From Bradyrhizobium sp. SK17 (GTDB taxonomy: Bacteria; Pseudomonadota; Alphaproteobacteria; Rhizobiales; Xanthobacteraceae), in contig NZ_CP025113.1 in the NCBI RefSeq assembly GCF_002831585.1, positions 5,099,001 to 5,163,000 of the forward strand: 64,000 bases of DNA. The letters run 5' to 3'. The notes below the pieces were generated by a model that worked only from the letters and a program-made list of their open reading frames with translations, was not told the origin of the DNA and did no database searches. Of the stretch, positions 11,496 through 60,444 are shown piece after piece (position 1 is the stretch's first letter; every line of letters begins with the position of its first letter). The position numbers were made by a program, and so were the translations under genes.

Positions 11496-12728
11496 CTAAC
11501 CGCCTTGCCGCAACCGCGCCAGCACCTTGAGCCCGCCGTAACCATCGGCGGGCAGCAGGCCGGACTTGATCTGGAAATCCTTGATCGCCTTCATGGTGTC
11601 GTTGCCGACCCGGCCGTCGGTGCCGCCGGTGTCGAAGCCGGCCTTGGTCAGCCGCGTCTGCATCTCCTGCACCTCGGCGAGCGTCAGCGCGCGCTCCGAG
11701 CCCGGGAAGGGCTGGATGAAGGGCGGCCCGCCGAGGCAGCGATCGCCGAGATGGCAGATCGCCAGCGCGTAGTTCATCGAGGGATTGTAACTTTTTACCG
11801 AGTTGAAGTTCGGGCCGAGCAGGAAAGCAGGCCCGCCGGCGACCGGGATCCAGAGCTGCGCCGACGCGTTCGGCTGCGGGAACGGCTGGCCATCGGCTCT
11901 GACGACGCCGGCGCTCGCCCAGGCCGCATAGCTGCGGCTGCCGCTGGCGCCACCCGGCGCGCGCACCTCGTAACCCCAGTGCTCGCCGCGGCGCCACTTG
12001 CCGCGATTGACCAGGTATTTCGCGGTCGAGCCCAGCGCATCGTCGGGCCGGCCGAACGGCGAGACCTTGCCGTCGCCGTCATAGTCGAAGCCGACATTGA
12101 GCCAGACCTCGGGCATCCACTGCGAATGACCCATCGCGCCGGCCCAGGAGCCGTTCATCTCCTCCGGCGTGCTCCAGCCGCGCTGCACGATCTTCAGCGC
12201 GTTGATCAGTTCGGTCTCCCAATAGGCCTTGCGGCGCGGCTCGTTCCAGGCGAGCGCCGCCAGCGAGGGAAACACCGGCGTCATGTGGTTCTGCTGCACC
12301 AGCGGATCGCCATAGGCCGATTCGACACCCCACAGCGCGAGCAACGTGCCGCGTTCGACGCCGAAGTCGCGCTCGATCCGGGTGAACAGCGCCTCGTTCT
12401 TCCTCAGCGCTTCCTTGCCATGGATGATGCGCCAGTCGGAGACCCGGCGGTTGATGTATTGCCAGATCTGCTCGTGGAATTCGGGCTGGTTGCGCATCTG
12501 CTTGAAGACGCTCATGTCGGGCTCGACCCGGCCCATGCAGCGATTCCAGGTCGCGTCCGAAATGCCCTTGGCCTGCGCCTTTGCGCGAAAATTGTCGCGC
12601 CATTGATCGAAGCCCGAAGGGGCGGCGGCCAGTGCGCCGAGCGGGGTGGCGAGCGCAACGCTTGCTGCCAGCCCCGCCTTCAGGACGGCACGACGGGCAG
12701 GGGATCGCGGAGAATCAGGCTGTTTCAT
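11496..12728 (-). CDS. Exported lytic murein transglycosylase (MltB/GH103) with peptidoglycan-binding domain
   Basis: Cleaves peptidoglycan glycan strands with formation of 1,6-anhydromuramic acid. It is 410 residues from ATG 12728. The N-terminus SPARRAVLKAGLAAS has a twin-arginine pattern followed by a hydrophobic segment and an AxA cleavage site, so Tat export is likely. The SLT_2/GH103 domain covers roughly residues 45-330, with the catalytic Glu in ALWGVESAYGD and MGHSQWMPEVW downstream. A PG_binding_1 domain (LTLAEVQEMQTRLTKAGFDTGG...) occupies the last ~65 residues. The upstream in-frame extension to 12881 looks non-coding. Convergent with the SDR gene across a palindromic repeat. Confidence 0.93.
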   Translation of the reverse strand: MKQPDSPRSPARRAVLKAGLAASVALATPLGALAAAPSGFDQWRDNFRAKAQAKGISDATWNRCMGRVEPDMSVFKQMRNQPEFHEQIWQYINRRVSDWRIIHGKEALRKNEALFTRIERDFGVERGTLLALWGVESAYGDPLVQQNHMTPVFPSLAALAWNEPRRKAYWETELINALKIVQRGWSTPEEMNGSWAGAMGHSQWMPEVWLNVGFDYDGDGKVSPFGRPDDALGSTAKYLVNRGKWRRGEHWGYEVRAPGGASGSRSYAAWASAGVVRADGQPFPQPNASAQLWIPVAGGPAFLLGPNFNSVKSYNPSMNYALAICHLGDRCLGGPPFIQPFPGSERALTLAEVQEMQTRLTKAGFDTGGTDGRVGNDTMKAIKDFQIKSGLLPADGYGGLKVLARLRQGG

Positions 12729-40648: not shown

Positions 40649-43234
40649 ATGAGCGCGGCAAAGAAGACATACCAGAATGCCATCAATGCGATGAATGGCG
40701 GGAGGCCGCTCGAGGCGATCGCGCTGTTCGACAGGGCCCTGGCGCTCAAGCCCGATCTGGCCGAGGCATGGCTCGGTCGTGGCAATGCATTCGCGGCGAT
40801 GGGGCGGCATGACGAAGCGCTCGCCGCCTTCGACAAGGCGATCGCCTTGAAGCCGGACCTGGCCGGACCGTGGCTCGGTCATCTGCTGACCAACCTCGGG
40901 CGTTTCGACAAGGCCCTTGCTGCCTATGACAAGGCGTTGGTCGTGAAGCCTGACCTGGCCGAGGCGTGGCTTGGCCGCTGCCATTCATATGCGAAGCTCG
41001 GGCGTTACACCGAGGCGCTCGCCGCCTACGACAAGTCGGTCGCGCTTGAGCCTCGCGCGGCCGCACCGTGGCTCGGTCACCTCCTTGGCAGTGTGGGGCG
41101 GTTCGACGAGGCGCTTGCCGCTTACGACAAGACGCTCGCGGTCAAGCCCGATCTGATCGAGGCGTGGCTCGGTCGTGGCGACGTGCTGTTCAGGCTGGCG
41201 CGGCTCGACGACGCGCTGGTGGCTTTCGACAAGGTGCTGGCGCTCAAGCCCGACCTGCCGGAGGCATGGCTCGGCCGCGGCAATCTGCTCACCGAACTCA
41301 AGCGATACGACGAGGCCGGCGCCGCATACGACAAGGCGCTGGCGCTGAAGTCCAGCCTGGCCGAGGCGTGGCTCGGTCGCGGCAATCTGCTCGTCAAGCT
41401 GGCGCGTCACGAGGAGGCGCTTGCGCCCTACGACAAGGCTGTGGCGCTGAAGCCCGATCTGGTGCAGGCGTGGCTCAGCCTTGGCAACGCATTCGTGGAA
41501 CTGGAGCGCTATGATCAGGCGCTTGCCGCCTGCGAGCGCGCATTGAAGCTCAAGCCAGATCTGGCCGATGCGTGGCTCGGTCGCGGCCTCTCGCTGCTCA
41601 AGCTGGAGCGCTTCGACGAGGCGCTTGCAACTTACGACAACGCGCGCGCGCTCAACCCCGATCTGGCCGGGGCGTGGCTTGGTCTTGGCAATGTGCTGCT
41701 CAAACTGCGACGCACCGACGACGCCCTTGCCGCGCAGGACAGAGCGCTCGCCCTCAAGCCCGACCTGGTCGAGGCATGGTGCGGTCGCGCCAACGTGTTC
41801 ATGGAAACAGGGCGTCATGACCAAGCGCTCGAGGCCTACGACAAGGCGTTGGCGCTCAAGCCCGATCTGGTGGGTCTCGAAGGTGTCCGTTTGCAATTGA
41901 AAACGCATCTTTGCGATTGGGACAGTTTTGAAGCCGACTTCGCTCGGGTGATCGACTCGGCCCGGAACAACAAGTCGCATACCGATCCCTTCACGTTCGT
42001 CGGCGTCACCTCGTCGAGCAAAGACCAGTATGATTACGTGCGGCGTTGGGTCGGCAAATGGCATCCGCCGGCCAAGAACCCGCTCTGGAATGGAGACATC
42101 TACAAGCACGACAACATCCGCATTGCCTACGTGTCGTCAGATTTTCAGGACCATCCCGTAGCGCAATTGACGGCCGGGATGTTCGAACATCACGACCGGT
42201 CGAGGTTTGACACGACGGCAATATCGATCGGTCCCGCCAATGAGTCTGCGATGCGCCGGCGGCTGGAAGGCGCCTTCGGAGCATTCCTCGACTGCTCGCG
42301 GCTCAGCGACGTCGAGGTTGCGCAGAAGATCCGGACCGCGGAGATCGACATCCTGGTCGACCTGAACGGCTTCACCAGGAACAGCCGCACCAACATCTTC
42401 GCGCAGCGGCCGGCACCGATCCAGGTCGGCTATCTCGGCTATCCCGGCACGAGTGGCGCTGATTTCATCGACTACATCATCGCCGATCGAACCATCATCC
42501 CGGCTTCGCAGCAGGGCGATTTCTCGGAAAAGATTGCGTATCTTCCGCACAGCTATCAGGCGAACGATGCAACGCGCGCCATATCGGAGATGGTGTTCAC
42601 CCGGGCTGAATGCGGGCTTCCGGAGCTAGGTGTCGTGTTCTGCTGCTTCAACAACCTCTACAAGATCACGCCGGCCGTGTTCGATCGCTGGATGCGGATC
42701 CTGGCCGCAGTGCCCGGCAGCGTGCTTTGGCTCCGTGAGGACAGCACCACCGCCGCAGCCAATCTGAGGATGCAGGCGGCGTTGCGCGGCGTCGATGCCG
42801 AACGGCTGGTCTTCGCCAGGCGCGTGTCTTCGCTGGCGGATCATCTGGCCCGGCATCGCGCCGCGGACCTTTTTCTGGATACGTTGCCTTTCAATGCTCA
42901 CACGACGGCGAGCGACGCGCTCTGGGCAGGCTTGCCGGTGCTGACCCAGATTGGCGACACCCTCGCGGGCAGAGTGGCCGCAAGCCTGCTCACAGCGGTC
43001 GGCTTGCCGGAATTGATTGCCCGTGATGCCAGCGAATATGAGCAACGGGCGATCGGCATCGCGCGAGATCCGGAAGCGCTCAAGGCGCTCAAGGAGAAGC
43101 TCGCGCAGAATCGTCTGACCAAGCCGCTGTTCGATACCAAGCATTTCACCAGGCAGATCGAGGCGGCTTACGTCGCAATGCACGAGCGGTACCAGGCCGG
43201 CCTCGCGCCGGACATGATCATTGTTGCCGAGTAG
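40649..43234 (+). CDS. TPR protein with SPINDLY-type O-GlcNAc transferase domain (GT41)
   Basis: 861 residues. The first ~405 consist of about 12 TPR units of 34 residues, unusually uniform (ALKPDLAEAWLGRGNxx repeated). The catalytic half begins near residue 480 with DNIRIAYVSSDFQDHPVAQLTAGMFEHHDR. It continues with IDILVDLNGFTRNSRTNIFAQRPAPIQVGYLGYPGTSGADFIDYIIAD and DTLPFNAHTTASDALWAGLPVLT, the GT41 motifs that bind UDP-GlcNAc. It probably glycosylates a protein through Ser/Thr; the target is unknown. Unlinked to other glycosylation genes here. ATG 40649 is preceded by AGCGAAAGC, a weak ribosome site. Confidence 0.92.
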   Translation: MSAAKKTYQNAINAMNGGRPLEAIALFDRALALKPDLAEAWLGRGNAFAAMGRHDEALAAFDKAIALKPDLAGPWLGHLLTNLGRFDKALAAYDKALVVKPDLAEAWLGRCHSYAKLGRYTEALAAYDKSVALEPRAAAPWLGHLLGSVGRFDEALAAYDKTLAVKPDLIEAWLGRGDVLFRLARLDDALVAFDKVLALKPDLPEAWLGRGNLLTELKRYDEAGAAYDKALALKSSLAEAWLGRGNLLVKLARHEEALAPYDKAVALKPDLVQAWLSLGNAFVELERYDQALAACERALKLKPDLADAWLGRGLSLLKLERFDEALATYDNARALNPDLAGAWLGLGNVLLKLRRTDDALAAQDRALALKPDLVEAWCGRANVFMETGRHDQALEAYDKALALKPDLVGLEGVRLQLKTHLCDWDSFEADFARVIDSARNNKSHTDPFTFVGVTSSSKDQYDYVRRWVGKWHPPAKNPLWNGDIYKHDNIRIAYVSSDFQDHPVAQLTAGMFEHHDRSRFDTTAISIGPANESAMRRRLEGAFGAFLDCSRLSDVEVAQKIRTAEIDILVDLNGFTRNSRTNIFAQRPAPIQVGYLGYPGTSGADFIDYIIADRTIIPASQQGDFSEKIAYLPHSYQANDATRAISEMVFTRAECGLPELGVVFCCFNNLYKITPAVFDRWMRILAAVPGSVLWLREDSTTAAANLRMQAALRGVDAERLVFARRVSSLADHLARHRAADLFLDTLPFNAHTTASDALWAGLPVLTQIGDTLAGRVAASLLTAVGLPELIARDASEYEQRAIGIARDPEALKALKEKLAQNRLTKPLFDTKHFTRQIEAAYVAMHERYQAGLAPDMIIVAE

Positions 43235-44475: not shown

Positions 44476-44754
44476 TTACCAGCGGCAAACGCGAACACCG
44501 CGCGGGGTCCACCAGCAACGGGGACCGACATATCCGCCGTAGCCGTAGCCGCGGCCATAGCCCCAACCACGGCCACGACCCCAACCGCCGCCACGACCCC
44601 AGCCGCCGCGATAGCCATAGCCACGTCCGCGCCATTGCGCTTGCGCCGACGATGTGGTCGCGCCGACCAGGATGGCCGAGGTGCTTGCGACATAGACGAA
44701 CAACAAAGCGACCGCTGCGAGGCAACGAGTCAGGATATTGTAGCGTTTAGTCAT
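44476..44754 (-). CDS. Exported Gly/Arg/Trp/Tyr-rich small protein
   Basis: 92 residues. The signal peptide (LTRCLAAVALLFVYVASTSA...) is cleaved near SSAQA. The mature part is Gly-Arg-Trp-Tyr repeats (WGRGGGWGRGRGWGYGRGYG), ending PRCWWTPRGVRVCRW with two cysteines. GGAGATCTCTGG precedes the ATG. Low-complexity exported protein of unknown role, similar in style to the Gly/Tyr-rich one at 36867. Confidence 0.75.
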   Translation of the reverse strand: MTKRYNILTRCLAAVALLFVYVASTSAILVGATTSSAQAQWRGRGYGYRGGWGRGGGWGRGRGWGYGRGYGYGGYVGPRCWWTPRGVRVCRW

Positions 44755-45120
44755 TCCAGAGATCTCCAGTCACTTCCAAACATCTGAACCAATGCTGGCT
44801 ATCGTGCTTTGACGCGCAACACCGACGATCGGTTCGAGCATGCGAGTACAATATTTTCACTAAGGTTCTTGCGAGCTTTAGCGACTCTATTGAGGCCAAA
44901 AAGTAAGGTCAAGTTGTGGTCATGCATGCATGAAATGAGGTGGTTGCTGCGTTCATCTTGCCGTTCATCCGAGGTTCATTCTGTTCATCGTGTGTTGCAT
45001 CGATTTGACTTGTGCGTCGCGGATGCAGAGATGCCAGACCTGCTGAAATGCTGTCGAGAACTTGAAGTCGACACGATCATGTTCTCTGAGCATTCCGAGA
45101 ATCCTTCCTGAAGAGTGCCT
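44755..45120. other. Divergent intergenic region upstream of the carbamoyltransferase
   Basis: 366 bp between divergent genes. It contains four GTTCAT(C/T) direct repeats (44951-44989) and probably the carbamoyltransferase promoter. An open frame ends at 45111 with a possible 26-codon end piece (MPDLLKCCRELEVDTIMFSE...) from ATG 45031, but no ribosome site supports it. Confidence 0.4.
44951..44989 (+). promoter_or_regulatory. Four tandem GTTCATC motifs
   Basis: GTTCATC at 44951, GTTCATC at 44963, GTTCATT at 44974 and GTTCATC at 44983, spaced 12, 11 and 9 bp. Direct repeats at about one helical turn are how OmpR/PhoB-type response regulators bind. They lie 130-170 bp upstream of the carbamoyltransferase start. 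Confidence 0.5.
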
Positions 45121-46941
45121 ATGCCGAAACAACACATCTACGTCCTTGGTCTCAACGTCTACGACCATGACGTCAGCGCCTGCCTGCTGCGCGACGGCGC
45201 GATCGCCTACGCGATCTCCAAGGAGCGCATCACCCGCGAGAAGCACGCCTCGGGCTTCTACAAGGAGGTCGTCGACTACTGCCTGTCCGCCGAGGGCATT
45301 ACGCTCGACGACGTCGATCTCGTGGTGCGCAACAGCTACATCCTGCCGGTGCCCGAGATGGAGGAACGGATGCTCCATCAGGACATGCCGGGCTTCCTGC
45401 CGATCGCCGAGCGCAACGAGGCAATCAAGCACCCGTTGTTTCGTTCCAAATCCGATAAGGTGGTGTCGATCTCGCATCACCTCGCGCATGCCTACAGCGC
45501 GTTCGCGGTGTCACCGTTCAAGGACGGCGTCGTGATGATCGTCGACGGTGTCGGCAACTATCAGGCTGACGCAATGGAGTCCCATCCGCAGGACGGGGCC
45601 TCGCCGCTGGCCCGCGAATCCGAGAGCTACTACAGGTTCGAGGACACCAGGCTCGAATGCCTGAAGAAGGTCTACATGGAGCCGGCGCGCGGGCTGTTGT
45701 CGGACGAGTTCTACAACATGCCGGGGCTGGGGGCGCTCTACAGCCGGGTTTCGACCTATGTGTTCGGCGACTGGAACAAGTGCGGCGAGCTGATGGGGCT
45801 CGCACCCTATGGCCGCCATGGGCAAGTCGGCAGTCTGCTCGAGATGAAAGACGGCGAGCTGCACGTACCGTTCTGGGGCAGCGACAACCAGCAGCCTTTC
45901 GTGCTCGACGGCGGCAGCTGGGACAAGAGCCCGACCATGCAGCATTGGCAGGATATCGCCTGGCGGGTGCAGGACGACACCGAGAATGTGCTGCTGGCGC
46001 GTGCGCGCTGGCTGCGCGAGACCACCAGTGCGAAGAACCTGTGCGTCGCCGGCGGCGTCGCGCTGAACTGCGTGGCCAACGGGCGCATCGCGCGCGAGGC
46101 CGGTTTCGAGAACGTCTGGATCCAGCCCGCCGCCGGCGACGACGGCATCGCGATCGGCTGCGCCTATTACGGCTGGCTCGAGGTGCTGAAGCAGCGCCGC
46201 TCGTTCGTGATGGAGCACGCCTATGTCGGCCGGCGCTACAGCGATGCCGAGGTCGCAGCCGCGCTGCAAAATTTTCTGGTGCGCATCCAGGTCGACGTCA
46301 GGCGCAGCGACGACATCTGCCGGGACACGGCAAAACTGCTCGCCGACCAGCGGGTGATCGGCTGGTTTCAGGGGCCGTCGGAGTTCGGTCCGCGCGCGCT
46401 CGGCAACCGCAGCCTGATCGCCGATCCGCGCAAGGCCGAGATGAAGGACATCCTCAACAGCCGGGTCAAGCATCGCCAGGCGTTCCGGCCGTTCGCGCCG
46501 ATCGTATTGGCGGAGCGCATGCGGGACATCTTCGAGGGCGAGGAGGACTCGCCCTACATGCTGATCGCCAAGCCGGTCCGGCCGGAATGGCGCGACAAGA
46601 TCCCGGCGATCGTGCATGTCGACGGCTCGGCGCGGGTGCAGAGCGTGCGGGAGGAAACCAACCCGATGCTCTATCGCCTGCTCAAGGCGTTCGATGCGCT
46701 GACCGGCGTGCCGGTGCTGATCAACACCTCGTTCAACGTCAAGGGCGAGCCGATCATCGAGACGCCGCAGGACGCGGTGAGCTGCTTCCTGACCACCGGG
46801 ATCGACCACCTCGTGCTGCACGACACGCTGGTATCGAAGACCACCATGCACAAGGTCGTCACACCTGTGATGACCACGTTCGGCGACGTCGCCACCATCG
46901 TGTCCTCGACGACGCAGGACGGCAGTCGCGGCGGCGGCTGA
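45121..46941 (+). CDS. NodU/CmcH-family O-carbamoyltransferase
   Basis: 606 residues. The N-terminal ASKHA-like domain begins YVLGLNVYDHDVSACLLRDG and includes SISHHLAHAYSAF with the carbamoyl-phosphate-site histidines and VMIVDGVGNYQ. The C-terminal YrdC-like domain contains WFQGPSEFGPRALGNRSLIADPR and FNVKGEPIIETPQDAV. It transfers a carbamoyl group from carbamoyl phosphate via carbamoyl-AMP to a hydroxyl group; NodU modifies Nod factors and CmcH cephalosporins. There is no nod gene here. It converges on the SagB gene with a 17-bp gap, so it may tailor the RiPP product. ATG 45121 is chosen over GTG 45115. Confidence 0.9.
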   Translation: MPKQHIYVLGLNVYDHDVSACLLRDGAIAYAISKERITREKHASGFYKEVVDYCLSAEGITLDDVDLVVRNSYILPVPEMEERMLHQDMPGFLPIAERNEAIKHPLFRSKSDKVVSISHHLAHAYSAFAVSPFKDGVVMIVDGVGNYQADAMESHPQDGASPLARESESYYRFEDTRLECLKKVYMEPARGLLSDEFYNMPGLGALYSRVSTYVFGDWNKCGELMGLAPYGRHGQVGSLLEMKDGELHVPFWGSDNQQPFVLDGGSWDKSPTMQHWQDIAWRVQDDTENVLLARARWLRETTSAKNLCVAGGVALNCVANGRIAREAGFENVWIQPAAGDDGIAIGCAYYGWLEVLKQRRSFVMEHAYVGRRYSDAEVAAALQNFLVRIQVDVRRSDDICRDTAKLLADQRVIGWFQGPSEFGPRALGNRSLIADPRKAEMKDILNSRVKHRQAFRPFAPIVLAERMRDIFEGEEDSPYMLIAKPVRPEWRDKIPAIVHVDGSARVQSVREETNPMLYRLLKAFDALTGVPVLINTSFNVKGEPIIETPQDAVSCFLTTGIDHLVLHDTLVSKTTMHKVVTPVMTTFGDVATIVSSTTQDGSRGGG

Positions 46942-46958
46942 TCACGCCTGGCGTCGCG

Positions 46959-48443
46959 CTAGCCGGAGGCGGGCGCTGCCATGCCGCGTCCCAGCGCGAA
47001 TTGACCGACCGGTCCCTCGACGTGAAAGTCGAGTCCGGTCATCTTGGCGAACAAATCGATATTGGTGGTGCCGATCGCGCAGCCGCCGAGACCGAGATCC
47101 GTCGCCATCATGTACAGCGTCTGGGTCAGGACGCCGACATCCTTCAGGATCAGCGCATAGGCGATCGCGCTGTACTTCCAGGAGATCCGGCCGAAGCGCG
47201 CGGCGATCGTGATCAGGATCTGCGGAGGCGCGGACGCATCCATGGCAAATTCGGCGCTTTGCAACACGGCCTCGATGTGTTGTGGATGGGCGTCGATCGC
47301 TGCCAGCACGTGCGCAGCGGCGTCGTAGTGATAGAAGCCCCGCGCCAGGCCATCGCAGCTCGCAACGGTCAGATAGAGTTCAAGCTCATATGCGCTGCCC
47401 GCCCCGGGATAGGGTCTGCCGGTGTATTCGATGTCGGGACCATCGTCGGCGAACTCGAGCTTGCTGCTCCATTTCGAGCGGACGCCCGCAACGCTGCGCA
47501 GCAACCTGGACAGCTCCACGAGCGTGATCGGCTTCCGTTCATCGAAGTCGCGCGTGGAATGCCTTGCGTGCAGCAGCTCTTCGAACGGCGAGGGGGACCC
47601 GTCGACTTCGGGCAGCTTGACGATCCGTCCGGGCCAGGCGGGCCGCACCGCCGGCAATGGCGCGATCAGGCCGGTGTGCGGGTAGAGGCCGCCCAGCGGA
47701 TTGGCCTGGCGGCCTTCCGTGCTGCGCGCATGAAACAGCAGGTCGTGAAAATCCCACAGCACAAGATCGTCGTCGCCTTCGGCCCGCCGGAGAGCATCGC
47801 GCTTTGCCGGGTCGACGCTGACGAGGATTTCGCAATCCAGCAGCAGCGCGAGGATTGCCGGGCCCGGATAGTCCTGCCGACGCCGGATTTGGCTGATCGT
47901 CTGTGGAACGGCGAGGATCGCGAGCAGGGTTGCGATCCGGGGATCGCAGATTTTGAACAGCGCCCCGGCGCGCGGCGATTCCAGCACCATCTCCGTGCCG
48001 CGCCGCCGCAGATAGGCGAAGCGCGACAATACGATTGTCGTCGCATCCGAGAGTGTCGGCATCCGCGGCCAATAGCCGGGAAGCTGCGGTTCGATCACCA
48101 CCAGGTCCTCGGTCGCGCGCGCGCCCGGCAGGCGGTACTCCAGCAGGCCGCGCAGCGCCAATTGTCGGATCAGGCGCTCGATGTCGCGCGCCGTGGCATC
48201 GCCCTCGGGCGCAGCCGACGGCAGAGGCAAGCCGTCCCGCAGGCCGCGCGCGCGCTCCGCGACCGCGGTGCTGAATGTTCCGAGCGGCTCCGAATAGCCA
48301 TCGACATGCGCCGCGATGCGGCCGTCGGTCTGGGTGTCCAGCGCGACGCGCGCATTCAGCCGAGCCAGCAGCGTCGGCGGCGCTGCGCTTGGCGATCCCG
48401 CCTGCTTCGGGGTGGTCTTGGATGTGCGTTTGGGCGTGCGCAC
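46959..48443 (-). CDS. SagB-type FMN dehydrogenase (azoline oxidase)
   Basis: 494 residues. The N-terminal ~200 residues form an extra domain often seen in SagB/ThcOx proteins of TOMM clusters. The nitroreductase-like C-terminal half begins near FEELLHARHSTRDFDERKPITL, whose Arg-His-Ser-x-Arg binds FMN. It continues with GSAYELELYLTV, GFYHYDAAAHVLAAI, and the closing LGLGGCAIGTTNIDLFAKMTGLD. In TOMM biosynthesis it oxidises thiazolines/oxazolines to thiazoles/oxazoles. It starts 12 bp after the YcaO stop codon on the same strand, so the two are one unit. Confidence 0.9.
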   Translation of the reverse strand: MRTPKRTSKTTPKQAGSPSAAPPTLLARLNARVALDTQTDGRIAAHVDGYSEPLGTFSTAVAERARGLRDGLPLPSAAPEGDATARDIERLIRQLALRGLLEYRLPGARATEDLVVIEPQLPGYWPRMPTLSDATTIVLSRFAYLRRRGTEMVLESPRAGALFKICDPRIATLLAILAVPQTISQIRRRQDYPGPAILALLLDCEILVSVDPAKRDALRRAEGDDDLVLWDFHDLLFHARSTEGRQANPLGGLYPHTGLIAPLPAVRPAWPGRIVKLPEVDGSPSPFEELLHARHSTRDFDERKPITLVELSRLLRSVAGVRSKWSSKLEFADDGPDIEYTGRPYPGAGSAYELELYLTVASCDGLARGFYHYDAAAHVLAAIDAHPQHIEAVLQSAEFAMDASAPPQILITIAARFGRISWKYSAIAYALILKDVGVLTQTLYMMATDLGLGGCAIGTTNIDLFAKMTGLDFHVEGPVGQFALGRGMAAPASG

Positions 48444-48455
48444 GCCGGCATCACC

Positions 48456-50708
48456 TCAGGTATGCGGAAGGAACGGCGTCAGCTCGCTTTCCAGGGAAGG
48501 CCGATCGCGCAGTCCGAGCCTGACCGGGACATCATAGAGCCGCCCGGGTCCGAAGCGGCGATAGAAATGGCGCATGCCGGGCACGATCACCCGGACCACG
48601 GCAACCTCGACGTCCGGCCGGGTCTGGTCGAGAACGAGGAAATCCATCCCGGCGCGCGCGGCGATGTCGACGCAGGCGTCCACCTGCGCACGGGTGTTGT
48701 CGAGCGGTACGCGCGAAGCGGTCGCTGGGGGGAGAACCGGATTCGAGCTCGGCAGCAGGAACGGATAGTCCGCGATCCGCAGCGGATTGATGCCGTCGAG
48801 GCTCGGTTTCTCGCCGCTGCCGCCACCCATCAGCCCGATGGAGAGGAACTGGTTCAGCTCCGTCAACGACCGCAGCAAAGCGATGCGCGGATCGAAGTGC
48901 GAGCCGGACCCGAACTCGATGTTTTCCTGGCCGTTCTGCATCCAGTGCACGATAGCGACATAGGTCGGGATGCCGAGATCGCTGGTGATGTCGAGCACCC
49001 ATAGCTTGCGGCCGGATTCCTCGAGTTGCGCCTTGAGATCGCGGACATAGGAATCTTCGAAGCTGTTGAGATCGATCTCCGCCCGCTGCGATCGGTTGTA
49101 CCACCAGATCGCGTAGGCATCGCGCTCCATCAGTTCGAGGAAGCCCTGGACGATCGCTTCCTCGCGGGTATTGCCGGCAGCGCAGCCGTTGGAATCGGCG
49201 GCGAAGGCAGCCGGCCCGTCATAGAAGAAATACAGCAGGCTGGTCGGAACGTGCCGGAAGCGCTGGTCGCGCAGCGACCAGACCGGCGACCACTCGATCC
49301 GCTCGGACGGATCGAACGGATCGGGCGCCGGCTGGGTGTGATGGGAATCGTCATGGTTGTGAACCGCTCGGGTCCGATACTGCTCCTCGCTGAACAGCAG
49401 AACGTCATTGGGACGGATGGCATCGCCCGGCGCGAAGTCGGTGAAGCGCTTTTTTGTCCGGATCTCGTCGCCCTGAAAAATTCCCGAGTAGCGTTCGATC
49501 GCTTCCATCAGCGCGCTGGCTTCGCCTTGCTCGGCGGTGCTGCCCTTGCCGAAACTGCCGCCGCTGAGCCCGGATCGGAGTTGGTCGAGAGTCTGCGCCG
49601 GCGCGGAGAAATTGTGCTGGGCGTAAAAACTGGTGTTCATCGGCAGATCGACTTCGATCCGCTCCAGCCGTGTCACGACGCCGGTGAGCGGGCTGACATG
49701 CTTCTTGAACCGCGCCAACGTGGTGCGCGACGACACCGTGCGATAGCCGCCGCTGGTCATGACCAGCGTGGCGCCCGGGCCCAGTTCGATCGGCTGCGGC
49801 GCTCGTCGCGGATTTTGCAGTTTCTTGTTGCCGCAAGTCGGGCATTGCGGGCGGGCAGCCACATAGTGCCTGGCGATGGTCGAACCGAGCAGGTCCAGGC
49901 TCATGATGTGATTGCGCAGATCGGTGCGGAAGCCGCTGCCAATCGCCTTGGCGATCTCGACCGCCGCAAACTGAACGGCGCTTTGCCCGATCGTGTGCTG
50001 CGCGAGGGCAGAGACCGCAACCGGGCGTGCCCCGTTGCGATCGAGGAAACCCTTGATCTCGCGGTTGCGGATCATCCGATCGAACAGGCAGGTCCAGCAC
50101 GCACTCTCGCCCGGATTGAAGACCGGACCGACCAGCGGAAACACGCCGGAGGGCTGCACCAGCAGCCAGGGAGACTTGCCGGACACGCGCTCCAGATTGC
50201 GCTCCGCCAGCCGCCGATCGAGATAATCGTTGACCAGGGTGACCGTGAGATCGGGCGATGCCTTGACGACGCGGACACCGAGGTCCCGCAACGCCTCGCT
50301 CAATTCAGCCGCGCCCTTGACGTCGATCGCCTCGACCCGCACGCGGCAGTCTTGCAGGTTTTGCCGAGCGACCGGGCCGGGCAGGCCGAGGCTCGCCCAA
50401 AGCCCGTCCACGGCGTTGTGGGGAGTTGGCGATGCCAAGATCACATAGCGCCGATCGAGCAGGCGCTTGATCGCTTCATCGATCTTGTCCGGTGGAAATT
50501 TTCGTCCGCGTTCGTCGAGGAGACTGACGCGGGATTTTCCCTTGGTGCCGATCGCCGCCGCCAGCGCGCAATAGAGTTCGCCGTGAAGAAAGAATTTGCG
50601 GTCTTCGGAATACAGACAGACGATGTCCGGAGGCAGCACATAGGCCGTGAAATTCGGTGCGAATTGCAGCGTCTCTTTGTCGGCCTGCGCAATGGATTTT
50701 CTGGGCAA
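48456..50708 (-). CDS. Fused E1-like/YcaO azoline-forming cyclodehydratase
   Basis: 750 residues. N-terminal part (~1-340): an E1-ubiquitin-activating-like leader-binding domain with Zn-ligand pairs CWTC (204/207) and CPTC (289/292), and no obvious ATP site of its own. C-terminal part (~365-750): a YcaO domain with ATP-binding motifs SALMEAIERYSG (398-409) and NTREEAIVQGFLELMERDA (513-531). The protein ends in Pro-Phe-Leu-Pro, close to the usual proline-rich YcaO tail. It would cyclise Cys (and Ser/Thr) of the precursor to azolines. The start is TTG 50708, with AGGA eight bases before. A hairpin separates it from the precursor gene. Confidence 0.93.
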   Translation of the reverse strand: MPRKSIAQADKETLQFAPNFTAYVLPPDIVCLYSEDRKFFLHGELYCALAAAIGTKGKSRVSLLDERGRKFPPDKIDEAIKRLLDRRYVILASPTPHNAVDGLWASLGLPGPVARQNLQDCRVRVEAIDVKGAAELSEALRDLGVRVVKASPDLTVTLVNDYLDRRLAERNLERVSGKSPWLLVQPSGVFPLVGPVFNPGESACWTCLFDRMIRNREIKGFLDRNGARPVAVSALAQHTIGQSAVQFAAVEIAKAIGSGFRTDLRNHIMSLDLLGSTIARHYVAARPQCPTCGNKKLQNPRRAPQPIELGPGATLVMTSGGYRTVSSRTTLARFKKHVSPLTGVVTRLERIEVDLPMNTSFYAQHNFSAPAQTLDQLRSGLSGGSFGKGSTAEQGEASALMEAIERYSGIFQGDEIRTKKRFTDFAPGDAIRPNDVLLFSEEQYRTRAVHNHDDSHHTQPAPDPFDPSERIEWSPVWSLRDQRFRHVPTSLLYFFYDGPAAFAADSNGCAAGNTREEAIVQGFLELMERDAYAIWWYNRSQRAEIDLNSFEDSYVRDLKAQLEESGRKLWVLDITSDLGIPTYVAIVHWMQNGQENIEFGSGSHFDPRIALLRSLTELNQFLSIGLMGGGSGEKPSLDGINPLRIADYPFLLPSSNPVLPPATASRVPLDNTRAQVDACVDIAARAGMDFLVLDQTRPDVEVAVVRVIVPGMRHFYRRFGPGRLYDVPVRLGLRDRPSLESELTPFLPHT

Positions 50709-50842
50709 GGAATCGTTCCTATGCAGCCGTGTTGGCTGGTCTCTCGGGGCGGGAGGAGGCCGGAGGCCTCAGCATTCCGGTGTTGCCGCACGAGCCGTGC
50801 CGCGCAATGGCACAAGGGCAACATCGGCAGGGGCAACATGAA

Positions 50843-50875
50843 ATGGCCGGGTCGACCTGCGTCGAACCCGGCCAT
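50843..50875 (-). terminator. Hairpin between TOMM precursor and YcaO genes
   Basis: On the minus strand ATGGCCGGGT pairs perfectly with ACCCGGCCAT (10 bp), plus inner CGAC/GTCG pairing, followed only by TTTC. The weak T run suggests a partial terminator or mRNA-stabilising hairpin. Either would give more precursor than enzyme. Confidence 0.6.
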
Positions 50876-50910
50876 GACGATTGATGTTTGGCAACGCAAT
50901 GCTATCCGGC

Positions 50911-51294
50911 TCAGCAGAGGCGGCAGGCGCCCCACGAAATGCAGCAGCCGCCACCGCATCCACCACAGCCGCCGCATCGGCAACCGCGACATCCGCGGCA
51001 GCCACGACAACCGCGGCAGCCTCCGCATCCACGCCACGCGACCTGAACGCCGGCTCCGGCGTCTTCCTTGTCGAACAGGTGGAAGGTCGCAAGGCTGACG
51101 TCAGCGATTTCTTCTTCGCCGAGCGTGATGGCATGGGTCGGAGTGTAGTTCGTAGTCTTTGGCGCGTCGGTCGCGGGCACTGCCGAAGCGGACGCACTAC
51201 CCACCAGTGAGAGAGTCAATCCGGCAGCACCCAACGCGGGCACCGCGGCCTTGGTTACGCGCTTCCGCGTCGGGGCTTGCTTCACCCGTGGCAT
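50911..51294 (-). CDS. Cys/Gly/Arg-rich RiPP (TOMM) precursor peptide with signal-like leader
   Basis: 127 residues from ATG 51294, with GGAGG eight bases upstream (an ATG at 51309 overlaps the ribosome site and is rejected). Residues 1-38 look like a Sec signal: basic MPRVKQAPTRKRVTK, a hydrophobic core (AAVPALGAAGLTLSLVG), then SASASAVP. Residues 39-88 form an acidic leader containing LGEEEIADVSLATFHLFDKE. The core (89-127) has 13 cysteines spaced mostly every third residue (C-R-G repeats, then C-G-G), ending CCISWGAC-RLC. It is encoded directly upstream of the YcaO fusion. Azole formation at many Cys is inferred. Confidence 0.88.
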   Translation of the reverse strand: MPRVKQAPTRKRVTKAAVPALGAAGLTLSLVGSASASAVPATDAPKTTNYTPTHAITLGEEEIADVSLATFHLFDKEDAGAGVQVAWRGCGGCRGCRGCRGCRGCRCGGCGGCGGGCCISWGACRLC

Positions 51295-51561
51295 AGTCGC
51301 ATCCTCCATTCCTGACGAAACTGGTTCTCAAATCCACCCCACGCATTTGTACGCTCGACGATCTGACCATGCAAGACGCGCGGCGCACTCGCACAACGCT
51401 TCAACGCGCATTCCGTTGCAATTTCATCTTGATGAACGTGATCCGACGCCGTTGCCGTCACACGGCCCACATCGTTAACGACAGTTTGCGGACCGCGAGA
51501 CGATCCATGCTGCGCTGCGATTACTCTGAAGCCGGGCCGAGGGGGCACCAGAGGAATCACC

Positions 51562-52452
51562 ATGGCGGATGATGCGGCGAGTTTTGTCTGGTACGAGCTG
51601 CTGACCACTGACGCTGCGGGTGCGAGCACCTTCTACGGCAGCGTCCTCGGCTGGCGCACCAGAGACGTTTCGACTGCCGAGCTTTCTTACAATTTGTTCA
51701 TCTCTGGCGATGTCCCGCGAAGCGGATTGATGGAGCTGCCTGAAGAGGGCAGGCGGCAGGGTGCGATGCCGCGGTGGGTCGGCTATGTCGGTGTCGGCGA
51801 TATCGACGCGACTGCGACCCGGATTCGAGAACTTGGTGGTGCCGTCTACGTCCCGCCGACCAGCACCAACATTGGCCGCATCGCGATCGTCGCTGACCCG
51901 CAGCGCGCAACCTTTGGACTGGTGAGCGATTTGAAGATTGCCGCGCCTGTCGTGGCCGATCTCGACGCGCCTTCGCGCGTGGGCTGGCACGAACTGCTGG
52001 CTGCCGACTGGCGCAAGGCGTTCGCCTTCTACGTAGACGTTTTCGGCTGGCAGCAGGCTGAAGCCGAGGTCGCTTCCGCCGAGCCTTATCAGTTGTTCGC
52101 AGCCGGCGGACGGATGGCCGGCGGCATCTTCAACAAGCGTCCGCTCGAACCGATTCCGTTCTGGCTCTATTATTTCAACGTCGACGACATCGACGCGGCG
52201 ATGGCGCGCGTGAACAGCGGTGGCGGACGGGTCTACGAAGGGCCGCTTGAGCTGCCTGACGGCAGCTGGATCGTCCGTTGCCTCGACCCGCAGGGCGCTA
52301 CCTTCGCCCTTCAGGGCGCGCGCAGCGAGGACGGCATCGCGAAAGCTGGTCCTGCCGAATATCGCTGGACCACCAGTTGGGACGGCATCTCGTCAAAAGG
52401 CCGATGGCGGAGCGACCCGCCGACCGGCAAGCGTCGGACGCCTCGGAAGTGA
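51562..52452 (+). CDS. VOC-family protein with two glyoxalase-like domains
   Basis: 296 residues from an ATG preceded by AGAGGAATCACC. Two tandem VOC domains: residues ~5-125 (FVWYELLTTDAAGASTFYGSVLGW... to ATFGLVSD) and ~135-255 (VGWHELLAADWRKAFAFYVDVFGW... to ATFALQGA). A charged tail (SSKGRWRSDPPTGKRR) follows. Proteins of this type bind metal or small molecules, and some confer drug resistance by sequestration. Its position divergent from the RiPP precursor allows an immunity role, but nothing in the sequence shows it. Confidence 0.87.
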   Translation: MADDAASFVWYELLTTDAAGASTFYGSVLGWRTRDVSTAELSYNLFISGDVPRSGLMELPEEGRRQGAMPRWVGYVGVGDIDATATRIRELGGAVYVPPTSTNIGRIAIVADPQRATFGLVSDLKIAAPVVADLDAPSRVGWHELLAADWRKAFAFYVDVFGWQQAEAEVASAEPYQLFAAGGRMAGGIFNKRPLEPIPFWLYYFNVDDIDAAMARVNSGGGRVYEGPLELPDGSWIVRCLDPQGATFALQGARSEDGIAKAGPAEYRWTTSWDGISSKGRWRSDPPTGKRRTPRK

Positions 52453-52461
52453 CGAACAGCG

Positions 52462-53628
52462 TCACCCGGCCTTGGCGGCCGGCGCCGCGGGCTTCGGTGC
52501 CGGCGGCTTGACCGGCTTATCCTGCCGCTTCGACCACGAGATGTAATAGGCCACGATCGTCATGATCGCGATGCCGGAGATGCTGACGAAGATCTGTGCG
52601 AACAGCGAGCCCGAGCTCATCGACAGTTCGAAATGTCCGACAAAGGACAGAAACACGCCGACGCAAAACACCGCGAGCGATTGCTGGCCGCAGACGATCA
52701 GGGGATCGAATACCTTCCACTCCAGTGCCGACCAGTCCTTCGGGATGAAGCGGATCACCAGCACCGTGATCACCACGAAGTGCAGGAAGCGGTAGGGCGC
52801 AAGGTTGGTCTTGTCGTTCGGATTGAACATCGAATAGAGCCAGTCCGGGAACTGGGCGCCAAACTCCGGAAAGCGTCCGGCCATCGTCATGACCAGCGCG
52901 AAGATCAGATACGCGATGCAGAACCACAGCGTGTAGCGCGAATTGATGATGTGCATGTTCTTGCGCGCACCGCCCATCGCGCACCACGAGCCGAACACGA
53001 ACAGCACCTGCCAGGCGAACGGATTGAAGTACCAGGTCCCGGCCGGATAGGCCGGCAGATTCCAGCCCATCTGCCGCGACACCAGCCACAGCGCGATCGA
53101 GGCCGCCATGGTCCAGTTCGGCTGCCGCAGCATGAACCACAGCACCGGCGGAAACAGGCCCATCAGCACGATATAGAGCGGCAGCACGTCGAGATTGACC
53201 GGTTTGAATTTCAGGAACAGGCCTTGGCGCAGCGTCTCGGTGGCGTTGTCGACGAGGCCGGCGACATTGAACTCGTTGATCATCTCGGAGTCGCCGAAGC
53301 GCAGCGCGAGATAGCTGATCGCGGCGATGTAGATCACGAACAGGATGATGTGCGCGACATAGAGCTGCCAGACCCGCTTGGTCAGCCGGGTCGCGCCGAC
53401 GATGAAGCCGCGCTCCAGCATCATGCGGGCATAGACAAAGGATGCGGTGTAGCCGGAGATGAAGACGAACAGGTCAGCGGCGTCGCTGAAGCCGTAATTC
53501 CGCGTCGTGATCCAGTTCACGATGTTGTCGGGGATGTGATCGAGATAGATCGCCCAGTTTGCGATCCCGCGGAACAGGTCGAGCCGCAGGTCACGTCCTT
53601 TTTCGGGCAGGCTAGCGTGGATTTCCAT
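52462..53628 (-). CDS. opgC: OpgC-type membrane acyltransferase
   Basis: 388 residues with about ten membrane spans. It begins GRDLRLDLFRGIANWAIYLDHIPDNIVNW, the OpgC/acyltransferase-3-like start with Arg and His, and contains SDAADLFVFISGYTASFVYARMM. OpgC adds succinyl groups to periplasmic glucans (osmoregulated or cyclic beta-glucans). The C-terminus is Lys/Pro/Ala-rich and cytoplasmic. ATG 53628 is preferred to the frame's first codon at 53718, because the added residues lack membrane or domain character. It converges on the VOC gene. Confidence 0.88.
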   Translation of the reverse strand: MEIHASLPEKGRDLRLDLFRGIANWAIYLDHIPDNIVNWITTRNYGFSDAADLFVFISGYTASFVYARMMLERGFIVGATRLTKRVWQLYVAHIILFVIYIAAISYLALRFGDSEMINEFNVAGLVDNATETLRQGLFLKFKPVNLDVLPLYIVLMGLFPPVLWFMLRQPNWTMAASIALWLVSRQMGWNLPAYPAGTWYFNPFAWQVLFVFGSWCAMGGARKNMHIINSRYTLWFCIAYLIFALVMTMAGRFPEFGAQFPDWLYSMFNPNDKTNLAPYRFLHFVVITVLVIRFIPKDWSALEWKVFDPLIVCGQQSLAVFCVGVFLSFVGHFELSMSSGSLFAQIFVSISGIAIMTIVAYYISWSKRQDKPVKPPAPKPAAPAAKAG

Positions 53629-53675
53629 GGGGCGCGCCGCTTCTTCTTCGAGGTGATGCTGTCGAGAAGACCATG

Positions 53676-53752
53676 CTGTAACAATCTGGCCCGGGTCCAA
53701 GGCTCTCCCCCAAGGCACTCCAAAGGGAAGCCCCGAGGCCAGATTGTCACAG
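53676..53752. repeat. Long imperfect inverted repeat upstream of opgC
   Basis: CTGTAACAATCTGGCC (53676-53691) and GGCCAGATTGTCACAG (53737-53752) are complementary at 15 of 16 positions, separated by 45 bp. They lie 48 bp before the opgC start, so in its mRNA leader or promoter. Confidence 0.7.
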
Positions 53753-58434: not shown

Positions 58435-60444
58435 ATGGACCGCTCAAAACTCTACCGGCGCTTCCGCACGCTGCTGATCGCCAACCGTGGCGAGATCGCC
58501 TGCCGCGTCATCCGCACGGCGCGCGCCATGGGGCTGCGCACCGTCGCCGTCTATTCCGAGGCTGACCGCGACGCCATGCATGTCGCGCTCGCCGACGAGG
58601 CCGTGCTGCTCGGGCCCGCGCGGGCGCGTGACAGCTATCTTGATATCGAACGTGTGATCGCAGCGGCAAAGGAGACCGGCGCCGAAGCGGTGCATCCCGG
58701 CTACGGCTTCCTCTCCGAGAATGCCGAATTCGCGCAGGCCTGCCTCGACGCAGGTCTGGTGTTCGTCGGCCCGACCGCCGGGATGATGACGGCGATGGGC
58801 TCGAAGTCCGGTTCGAAGGCACTGATGGAGAAGGCCGGCGTGCCGCTGGTGCCCGGCTATCACGGCGAGGCGCAGGACGAGGTGATCCTGGCGGACGCCG
58901 CCAACCGGATCGGCTTCCCGGTGCTGGTCAAGGCATCGGCCGGCGGCGGCGGCCGCGGCATGCGCGTGGTCAATGCGGCGGCGGAGCTGTCGGCCGCGAT
59001 CACCAGCGCCAAGCGGGAGGCCAAGGCGGCGTTCGGCGACGACCGCATGCTGATCGAGAAATACGTCCAGAACCCGCGGCATATCGAGGTGCAGATCATC
59101 GGCGACAGCCACGGCAATCTGCTGTCGCTGTGGGAGCGCGAATGTACGCTGCAACGCCGCCACCAGAAGGTGATCGAGGAAGCGCCGTCGCCGACCCTGA
59201 ACGCCGCGCAGCGCGACACCGTCTGCGAGGCCGCGCGCAAGGCCGCCGGCGCAGTCAATTATGTCGGCGCCGGCACGATCGAGTTCGTCTCCGACGGCAA
59301 GGACGTGTTCTTCATCGAGATGAACACCCGTTTGCAGGTCGAGCATCCCGTGACCGAACTGATCACCGGCGTCGATCTGGTCGAATGGCAGCTCCGCGTC
59401 GCGTTCGGCGAGGCGCTCCCGCTGAAGCAGAACGAGATCAAGCTGAACGGGCATGCCATCGAGGCGCGCGTCTATGCGGAGAATCCGCAGAAGAACTTCA
59501 TGCCTTCGGTCGGCCGCATCAAGACCTGGCGGACGCCGCCGGAAGGCGATGGCCTGCGCATCGACGCCGGCTACCGCAGCGGCGATAGCGTCTCGCCATA
59601 CTATGACGCGATGCTCGCCAAGGTGATCGCCTGGGCGCCGACCCGCGAAGGCGCGATCGAGAAGCTCAATCGCGGACTGGAACAGACCGACGTCCGCGGC
59701 ATCGTCACCAACATCCCATTCCTGTCGGCGCTGGTGACGCATCCGGCGACGAGGGCCAATGCGATCGACACCGGCTTCATCGAGCGCGAGCTGAAAAACC
59801 TGACGGCGGGGCAGGGTGCTGCCGGCGAGTTCGAGCTGTGCGCGGCGGTGGCCGCGATCGTCGACGACGAGCGCAAGGCGTCACGGCGTGAGGCCAGTTC
59901 GCCGTGGCAGGCGTTTGGCTGGATGCCGGTCGGCCGCCGCCAGCGGGTGTTTTCGCTCCGGCAGGGCCACGAGCCACCACTGACCATCACGTTGCACTAT
60001 GGCAGCGGACCGTCGACACTATCAATCGGCGGCCGCGAGCTTCCCTTCGCGATCTCGTCGTCCGACGACGACGGCTTCGACCTGACGCTGAACGGCGTCA
60101 AGTCGCGCATCGCTTCTGTGATCGAGGGCCACGAGCTTTATTTGCGCACTCGCAATGGCCGCTTCGACCTGCACTGGGTCGATCCGTTCGGCGGCGAAAG
60201 CGAGGAGCAGGTCGGCGAGGACAAGATCGTGGCTCCCTTGCCCGGCACCGTGGTGGCGCTGCTGGCCGAGGAGGGCGCCACCTTGGAGAAGGGCGCGCCG
60301 ATCCTCACCTTGGAAGTGATGAAGATGGAGCAGACCTTGCGCGCGCCCTACGCGGGTGTGCTCAAGAAGCTCAAATGCAAGGTCGGCGACATCGTCGGCG
60401 AGGGCGTCGAGCTTGCGGAAGTGGAGCCTGCGGCCGCGTCATGA
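58435..60444 (+). CDS. mccA: 3-methylcrotonyl-CoA carboxylase alpha subunit (biotin carboxylase/BCCP)
   Basis: 669 residues. The biotin carboxylase domain (~1-450) has LLIANRGEIACRVIRTARAMG, HPGYGFLSENAEFA, KASAGGGGRGMR (ATP grasp), and EMNTRLQVEHPVTE. A BT-like linker follows. The C-terminal BCCP domain has the biotinyl-lysine motif EVMKMEQ near residue 627. It carboxylates biotin with bicarbonate and ATP. Its TGA overlaps the ATG of HMG-CoA lyase (ATGA), so translation is coupled. Confidence 0.96.
   Translation: MDRSKLYRRFRTLLIANRGEIACRVIRTARAMGLRTVAVYSEADRDAMHVALADEAVLLGPARARDSYLDIERVIAAAKETGAEAVHPGYGFLSENAEFAQACLDAGLVFVGPTAGMMTAMGSKSGSKALMEKAGVPLVPGYHGEAQDEVILADAANRIGFPVLVKASAGGGGRGMRVVNAAAELSAAITSAKREAKAAFGDDRMLIEKYVQNPRHIEVQIIGDSHGNLLSLWERECTLQRRHQKVIEEAPSPTLNAAQRDTVCEAARKAAGAVNYVGAGTIEFVSDGKDVFFIEMNTRLQVEHPVTELITGVDLVEWQLRVAFGEALPLKQNEIKLNGHAIEARVYAENPQKNFMPSVGRIKTWRTPPEGDGLRIDAGYRSGDSVSPYYDAMLAKVIAWAPTREGAIEKLNRGLEQTDVRGIVTNIPFLSALVTHPATRANAIDTGFIERELKNLTAGQGAAGEFELCAAVAAIVDDERKASRREASSPWQAFGWMPVGRRQRVFSLRQGHEPPLTITLHYGSGPSTLSIGGRELPFAISSSDDDGFDLTLNGVKSRIASVIEGHELYLRTRNGRFDLHWVDPFGGESEEQVGEDKIVAPLPGTVVALLAEEGATLEKGAPILTLEVMKMEQTLRAPYAGVLKKLKCKVGDIVGEGVELAEVEPAAAS

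Follow-up and report, generated by a model that had tools for sequence, protein, structure and literature searches.

A predicted four-gene azole-peptide cassette in Bradyrhizobium, its VOC partner, and a carbamoyltransferase that is probably a bystander

Which genes make up the putative azole-peptide locus of Bradyrhizobium sp. SK17, and does the carbamoyltransferase gene that converges on it take part in making the peptide? The locus lies in a 64,000-nucleotide stretch of contig NZ_CP025113.1 (assembly GCF_002831585.1, positions 5,099,001 to 5,163,000; hereafter the window, in which positions are counted). An earlier note on this DNA had proposed a cluster for a ribosomally synthesised and post-translationally modified peptide (RiPP) bearing azoles, of the thiazole/oxazole-modified microcin (TOMM) or linear azole peptide (LAP) class, built from a precursor, a YcaO fusion, a SagB dehydrogenase and a NodU/CmcH-type carbamoyltransferase (CT). 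Our analysis points to a different foursome, namely a VOC protein, the precursor, the YcaO fusion and SagB, together termed the cassette. The genes concerned are:

51562..52452, plus strand: two-domain VOC (glyoxalase-like) protein, the fourth gene of the type-A cassette (defined below)
50911..51294, minus strand: precursor gene, 127 residues from the conserved MPRVK start
50911-51309, minus strand: the precursor reading frame from a longer in-frame ATG start at 51309, 132 residues from this first ATG
48456..50708, minus strand: fused leader-binding/E1-like and YcaO cyclodehydratase, 750 residues
46959..48443, minus strand: SagB/ThcOx-type FMN azoline dehydrogenase, 494 residues
45115-46941, plus strand: CT, with Pfam Carbam_trans_N and Carbam_trans_C domains

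The genes that the earlier note described are all present: the 127-residue Cys/Gly/Arg-rich precursor (counted from MPRVK), the E1-like/YcaO fusion and SagB on the minus strand, and a convergent CT with both family domains, whose stop codon lies 17 bp from that of SagB. The fusion scores 236.4 bits against TIGR03604, the azoline-forming SagD type (cut-off 219.25), 312.9 bits against Pfam YcaO, and 148.3 bits against TIGR03882 for its leader-binding/E1-like domain (cut-off 36.9); its best relatives in the PDB are LynD (507.9 bits) and TruD (473.7 bits), over residues 13-745. SagB exceeds the TIGR03605 cut-off (176.7 against 78.4 bits), has CyaGox as its best PDB relative (171.8 bits) and keeps the WKY stretch (K423-Y424). 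Family, domain and motif matches, together with conservation of the precursor, support the assignment of these window genes to azole-RiPP (TOMM/LAP) biosynthesis, as far as sequence can.

Of 188 loci collected, 149 with distinct YcaO sequences were kept. Around the YcaO gene of 103 loci, with six reference loci compared, only four families recur widely: YcaO itself (103), SagB (99), the precursor (97) and VOC (95); the next real neighbour, OpgC, is found in 28. No protease family appears among these recurrent families or in a Pfam scan of nine window proteins, and the Pfam and NCBIfam matches of the same nine proteins include neither MNIO (DUF692) nor DUF2063. The flanking proteins of 15 loci, compared by eye and not by a family scan, varied, with no constant neighbour beyond the four genes.

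Membership of the VOC gene was also seen in a survey of 195 Bradyrhizobium genomes, in which cassette presence was counted by a YcaO orthologue of at least 70% identity and matches of 40% or less were left out. The cassette occurs in 86 of these genomes (two by YcaO fragments), far above chance; in the genome of SK17 itself the window YcaO has a single match at E 0.001 or better. VOC is present in 85 of the 86 cassette genomes and in none of the other 109 (p 1.5e-55, with kinship ignored), the sole exception (G184) having a YcaO fragment only. Two layouts can be distinguished. Type A, found in Bradyrhizobium, other Xanthobacteraceae, Methylocapsa, Methylovirgula and others, has VOC, precursor, YcaO and SagB; type B, found in Methylocystis and Methylosinus, has precursor, YcaO and SagB, often an amidase behind SagB, and no VOC. 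All 112 type-A loci with enough flank contain VOC. In 123 type-A loci with VOC, the gene lies divergently upstream in 107 and convergently downstream in 16, the latter all outside the genus; since it can stand on one side of the cassette or the other, the linkage has outlived a rearrangement. VOC is a true fourth gene of the cassette, with near-exclusive pairing in the genus. No exporter or protease is linked. The earlier note, which held that no transporter, protease or immunity gene adjoins, overlooked this divergent gene at 51562-52452; an immunity role for it is only a guess.

The VOC protein is strongly conserved, including residues W10, E12, D112, W142, E144 and D242, and its N-terminus has no signal-like start. 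Among its best 50 fold matches, Rv0577 (3oxh) and then AbxF (8stb, 9jt3) stand clearly above the rest, at 27-29% identity; the context here is an azole RiPP. To judge by the structure titles, Rv0577 is a kinase-inhibitor homologue and AbxF an enzyme that forms the spiroketal of an anthrabenzoxocinone antibiotic.

The precursor has a layout shared by 136 aligned homologues: a basic N-terminus, a Gly-punctuated weakly hydrophobic stretch, an AxA-like end, a variable linker, the motif EEEIxDVSLxTFxLFDKE, and a core. In the window its parts are:

51181..51294, minus strand: signal-like N-terminus, residues 1-38, with a basic stretch, a weakly hydrophobic stretch and an AxA-like end
51064..51117, minus strand: leader motif EEEIADVSLATFHLFDKE, residues 60-77, which the YcaO leader-binding domain is presumed to recognise, to judge by sequence
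50914..51033, minus strand: core, residues 88-127, with GC/RGC repeats and the ending CCISWGACRLC

Across these homologues G22, G25, E62, D65, V66, L68, F71, C90, C99 and C105 are conserved at a rounded 100%, and G32 in 97%. The last 40 residues of the window protein read RGCGGCRGC...CCISWGACRLC and comprise 13 Cys, 16 Gly, 7 Arg and one Ser, with no Thr or Tyr; homologue cores (n=133) have a median of 16 Cys (range 9-23) and a median of two Ser plus Thr. The C-terminal pattern CxSWGxCx(1-3)C is found in 116 of 137 homologues, where L112, whose precursor frame was mis-read by the script, is counted as lacking it. Pooled over ten close relatives, dN/dS is 0.12 for the whole precursor, 0.10 for its signal-like part, 0.20 for linker plus leader, and 0.073 for the core, where alignment of the repeats is uncertain; the precursor is under purifying selection among close relatives. 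It matches no Pfam family and no NCBIfam model above cut-off. Membership of JUQZ_fam_ocin (NF053514) was considered and rejected (13 bits against a cut-off of 40, with noise-level matches in 11 of 14 control genomes). A crude signal-peptide rule, its threshold chosen post hoc after inspection of the precursors, is passed by 131 of 136; L049 and L110 fail because AxA is missing at the position, and L174, L178 and L179 because the script picked starts too far upstream.

Whether the CT belongs to this unit was examined by the gene-order comparison that the earlier note had proposed, counting window-type CTs at 78% identity or more and leaving out weaker family members (some CT-family match occurs in 178 of the 195 genomes). 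CT and cassette prove independent: 29 genomes have both, 73 lack both, 36 have the CT alone and 57 the cassette alone (odds ratio 1.03, p = 1; the table includes two YcaO-fragment genomes and one CT fragment). This is the outcome that the earlier note had named as speaking against a place for the CT in the system. Where both are present, they are adjacent by coordinates in five of the 29 (G000, G069, G108, G119 and G183); in a further genome, G045, a 40-residue CT start stands at a contig edge beside VOC (L053) and a CT lies on another contig. An orthologous CT occurs in the fetched flanks of only seven of 128 distinct type-A loci, that is, in the window and in six others (L033, L034, L035, L038, L208 and L212).

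The CT has, moreover, surroundings of its own. From about 60 CT genomes without adjacency, 13 cassette-free CT loci were fetched (L118-L130), and in all 13 an OpgC acyltransferase, a small GR-rich secreted-looking protein and a cyclase are encoded near the CT. It directly faces OpgC in 12 of them, with stop codons 3-96 bp apart; at L127 the junction is unusable, and CT and OpgC are still neighbours. This facing pair resembles an empty cassette site, and in the window the cassette is placed exactly between CT and OpgC. In L044 (genome G025) the cassette is retained with a mere 34-residue CT start (12222-12323), which lies between VOC and OpgC, on the side of the cassette opposite to that in the window. 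A conserved neighbourhood of the CT can be seen in the window too (45115-46941 with 52462-53718, compare L118-L130), including one further gene:

44476-44754, minus strand: small Gly/Arg/Tyr/Trp-rich protein of 92 residues, clearly signal-like at its start and conserved beside the CT

Carbamoylation of the window peptide by this enzyme could draw on the convergent arrangement 17 bp from SagB, on the six other loci and the CT start of L053, on the different CT that is bound to the cassette in Methylocystis (see below), and on the std cluster, where, in the consulted part of its description, a NodU-like CT acts on a RiPP lysine (PMC13174530). Set against these are the independence across 195 genomes, the small share of type-A loci with a CT, the truncated CT of L044, the constant company of the 13 cassette-free CTs, and the core, in which one Ser is the only hydroxyl residue. 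The earlier note had entertained O-carbamoylation; at several hydroxyls this is impossible, since that single Ser is accompanied by neither Thr nor Tyr. We consider a carbamoylated window product highly improbable. On co-occurrence, cassette-free loci and core composition the CT is rejected here as a cassette partner; it is probably a bystander, a chance neighbour.

The intergenic regions of the cassette contain three candidate signals:

51423..51436, no strand assigned: palindrome TTCATCAAGATGAA in the region shared by VOC and precursor, a putative operator
51345..51375, minus strand: probable precursor promoter, CTTGCA, 17 bp, GTACAAAT, suggested by sequence
50843..50875, minus strand: hairpin just after the precursor stop and before YcaO, possibly a partial terminator or mRNA end

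The palindrome pattern TTCATN4ATGAA is found in 87 of 117 type-A upstream regions and in none of 18 type-B regions. The 30 misses comprise most loci outside the genus (L132-L138, L140-L143, L169 and L190) and about 17 inside it, so the pattern is mainly a genus feature. The form TTCATNAANATGAA occurs once in the genome of SK17. A search for a wider regulon with GTTCATN4ATGAAC at up to one mismatch gave 47 forward-strand sites (the same on the reverse) and led nowhere; an in-window match at 59311 was set aside, as it falls inside a reading frame (58435-60444) that looks biotin-carboxylase-like by eye. When as many as 21 selected intergenic regions are aligned, the CTTGC and GTAnA columns of the promoter are partly conserved (at least 85%). 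Folding of the 136-nt hairpin region gives z -2.48, with equally stable shuffles in 4 of 200.

The gene set is widespread among bacteria of soil and roots. In a family sample, 63 of 391 genomes, from 9 of 47 genera, match at E 1e-60, and the best match in each of these genera reaches 66% identity or above. Further relatives occur in Beijerinckiaceae and in methanotrophs, and it is in this last branch that the earlier idea of a CT in a TOMM pathway holds: Methylocystis and Methylosinus cassettes, which belong to the same family as the window cassette, have a CT beside the precursor that differs from the window CT (about 33% identity). A CT of the P0011 type (at least 78% identity) is present in 9 of 39 Methylocystis-genus genomes, where the match in G1362 has a stop codon, and lies directly upstream of the precursor in all nine, two of which look nearly identical; in Methylosinus it is divergent yet adjacent (L165 and L188, contigs of equal length). 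Among the 16 methanotroph-branch loci L174-L189, five have a CT, ten have none and L182 has too little flank. Type-B precursors end in CRGC-type repeats without the SWG motif, and the cores inspected contain no Ser, Thr, Tyr or Lys from WWG (or AWRG, AQRG) onwards. Without hydroxyl and Lys residues, these cores offer the type-B CT no evident acceptor. The type-B amidase begins STRRAFLMG, which we take to be a Tat-like signal; cassettes combining a CT beside the precursor with such an amidase are seen at L144 (5308-7008), L163, L164, L165, L184-L188 and L261-L266.

Plasmid homologues (E 1e-40) number 21, of which one, from Methylovirgula, falls at 60-80% identity (67%) and 20 fall below 60%. 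The former, on plasmid pHY1 of Methylovirgula sp. HY1 (L267), is a cassette copy between multicopper oxidase and cbb3 oxidase genes; its precursor gene is not in the incomplete pHY1 gene table, and the precursor reading frame is seen in L166. Plasmid p155_2 of Bradyrhizobium sp. 155 (L268), typed as conjugative, has a YcaO-fusion/SagB pair at 36% identity with transposase genes on both sides. A record titled Frankia sp. RB7 (L229) contains a Bradyrhizobium-type cassette, and its title looks mislabelled. Distant YcaO relatives (about 23-44% identity) were met at L113-L117, L146-L150 and L171-L173; Cys-rich reading-frame screens of L146-L150 and L171-L173 found no precursor-like frame. In the window itself, plus-strand positions 40649-43234 encode an 861-residue TPR protein with a glycosyltransferase family 41 (O-GlcNAc-transferase-like) domain.

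These observations point to what is probably a self-contained four-gene azole-RiPP module consisting of VOC, precursor, LynD-like YcaO fusion and SagB. The leader-binding domain of the fusion would grip the EEEIxDVSLxTF motif, and its YcaO half, using ATP, would cyclise core cysteines to thiazolines by the chemistry of LynD/TruD and SagD. SagB, by the FMN chemistry of its type, would then oxidise these to thiazoles, up to 13 in number, with a change of about -20 Da each. The signal-like N-terminus could direct the modified peptide to the general export machinery, and this would account for the absence of a linked exporter or protease; the fit is no proof. The VOC protein would most likely bind the azole product or an intermediate, for self-protection or handling, further catalysis being less likely, and the product would presumably act in the periplasm or outside the cell. 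The likeliest single role for it is that of an antibacterial linear azole peptide, at a little under an even chance.

Several points weigh against this account. The module is proposed from its genes, and its product is a predicted one. Among E. coli controls, the crude signal rule let through one of 33 proteins taken to be cytosolic and failed to pick up one of two with a signal-like start (yaaI). For a Sec signal, moreover, the hydrophobic stretch is weak: its median best 12-residue Kyte-Doolittle value is 1.79, where these two signal-like controls reach 2.86 and 2.17. The N-terminal glycines are conserved beyond what export alone needs; the stretch may serve as an additional element for recognition or at the membrane. 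Because the rule is post hoc, one signal-like control was missed and the stretch is weak, secretion of the precursor is put forward only conditionally. The role of VOC cannot be read from its fold, given that AbxF is an enzyme and Rv0577 is titled a kinase-inhibitor homologue, and type-B relatives lack it (it is present in one of 18 well-flanked loci, L194, a borderline assignment). Finally, the low dN/dS and the occurrence in 44% of the sampled genus genomes are a poor match for a bacteriocin used in antagonism.

Other readings were weighed. VOC could be a tailoring enzyme with AbxF-like catalysis on the precursor or product and not a binding or self-protection protein; AbxF is its second-best fold match, and strong conservation, including the six residues named above, and near-exclusive pairing speak for it. 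Since type-B cassettes do without VOC, azole formation as such does not require it; we regard tailoring as a possible role that remains the minority case. The product could also be no antibiotic at all and instead a conserved periplasmic peptide for handling metals or redox, a YcaO counterpart of the bufferins, whose precursors, in the consulted part of PMC12452194, have Sec signals and chelate copper. The signal-like N-terminus without linked exporter or protease, the many cysteines with a conserved Cys-rich C-terminus, the core dN/dS of 0.07, the spread over 86 of 195 genomes, the position of the Methylovirgula plasmid copy between multicopper oxidase and cbb3 oxidase genes, and one L163 flank protein that by eye resembles a cytochrome-oxidase assembly/cytochrome c protein all agree with it. 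Azole formation would, however, remove the thiols, and the flanking proteins of the 15 loci compared by eye are otherwise varied; we rank such a function second to antibacterial action and hold it to be somewhat unlikely.

That the cysteines stay unmodified, in an ordinary secreted protein rich in Cys and Gly that happens to lie beside a YcaO/SagB pair with another substrate, is scarcely credible. The precursor does exceed the cut-off of no curated family, but it accompanies YcaO in 97 of 103 loci and across genera, has a conserved acidic leader motif upstream of its Cys core, and keeps its place in the gene order of type B, where other genes differ. A wider conjecture, unlikely as a whole, is that the cassette represents widespread YcaO/SagB peptides with their own general-secretion signal, no exporter or leader protease and a dedicated VOC, serving a housekeeping role in the envelope (metal, redox or stress) and not warfare, and that the methanotroph branch, with CT and Tat-signal amidase replacing VOC, would yield the first carbamoylated azole RiPPs.

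If the four-gene module is real, about two fifths of the sampled Bradyrhizobium species (86/195) carry an uncharacterised azole peptide made by an unusually small gene set, and its near-exclusive VOC partner offers a direct handle on how producers handle or tolerate thiazole peptides. Should the precursor bear a true signal, export by general secretion, which is described as rare among bacterial RiPPs, would be found with YcaO/SagB chemistry too. The titles and abstract openings of open PubMed Central papers among the matches listed contained no description of the cassette, the precursor or the VOC protein, and subscription print may hold some; neither Cox 2015 nor RRE-Finder has the string 'rhizob' in its main text. 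The nearest printed mention met is that of 'thiazole-oxazole-modified microcins', predicted with antiSMASH and RAST, in the part consulted of a genome note on Bradyrhizobium sp. Ash2021 (PMC11737075). The cassette enzymes are of a known kind; the precursor family, the VOC pairing and the signal-like N-terminus are new as far as that open literature goes.

Among the known systems close to the cassette are the cyanobactin enzymes: its fusion has the full-length leader-binding/E1-like/YcaO architecture of LynD and TruD, including the CxxC pairs and the EAIERYSGIFQGDE stretch, and its SagB is closest to CyaGox. PatA/PatG-type subtilisin proteases are a hallmark of cyanobactins. The cassette has none among its recurrent genes in the 103 loci, and differs further in its unrelated precursor with a signal-like N-terminus, its single GC/RGC core and its additional VOC gene. 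In the TOMM/LAP class, a cyclodehydratase and an FMN dehydrogenase act on a core whose ring-forming residues lie in the adjacent precursor. The cassette shares this pair with microcin B17, phazolicin and klebsazolicin, as far as the consulted part of PMC6783444 describes them; unlike in linear azole peptides, its cyclodehydratase is fused and not split, no exporter is linked, VOC is a partner, the precursor ends CCxSWGxCxxC, and the ring-forming residues are almost only Cys. With the MNIO-modified bufferins it shares a Cys-rich precursor, signal-like at its N-terminus here and with export conditional, whereas its chemistry is that of YcaO/SagB and the window cassette encodes no MNIO or DUF2063 protein. 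Precedents for a CT in RiPP pathways are std and crocagin, both named in the consulted part of PMC13174530. The std RiPP cluster of Streptomyces encodes both a YcaO and a NodU-like CT and combines YcaO-TfuA thioamidation with Lys carbamoylation, with no SagB in the gene list quoted from that paper; it is comparable only to the methanotroph type-B branch, where an azole RiPP with a carbamoyltransferase could be put to the test, and not to the window.

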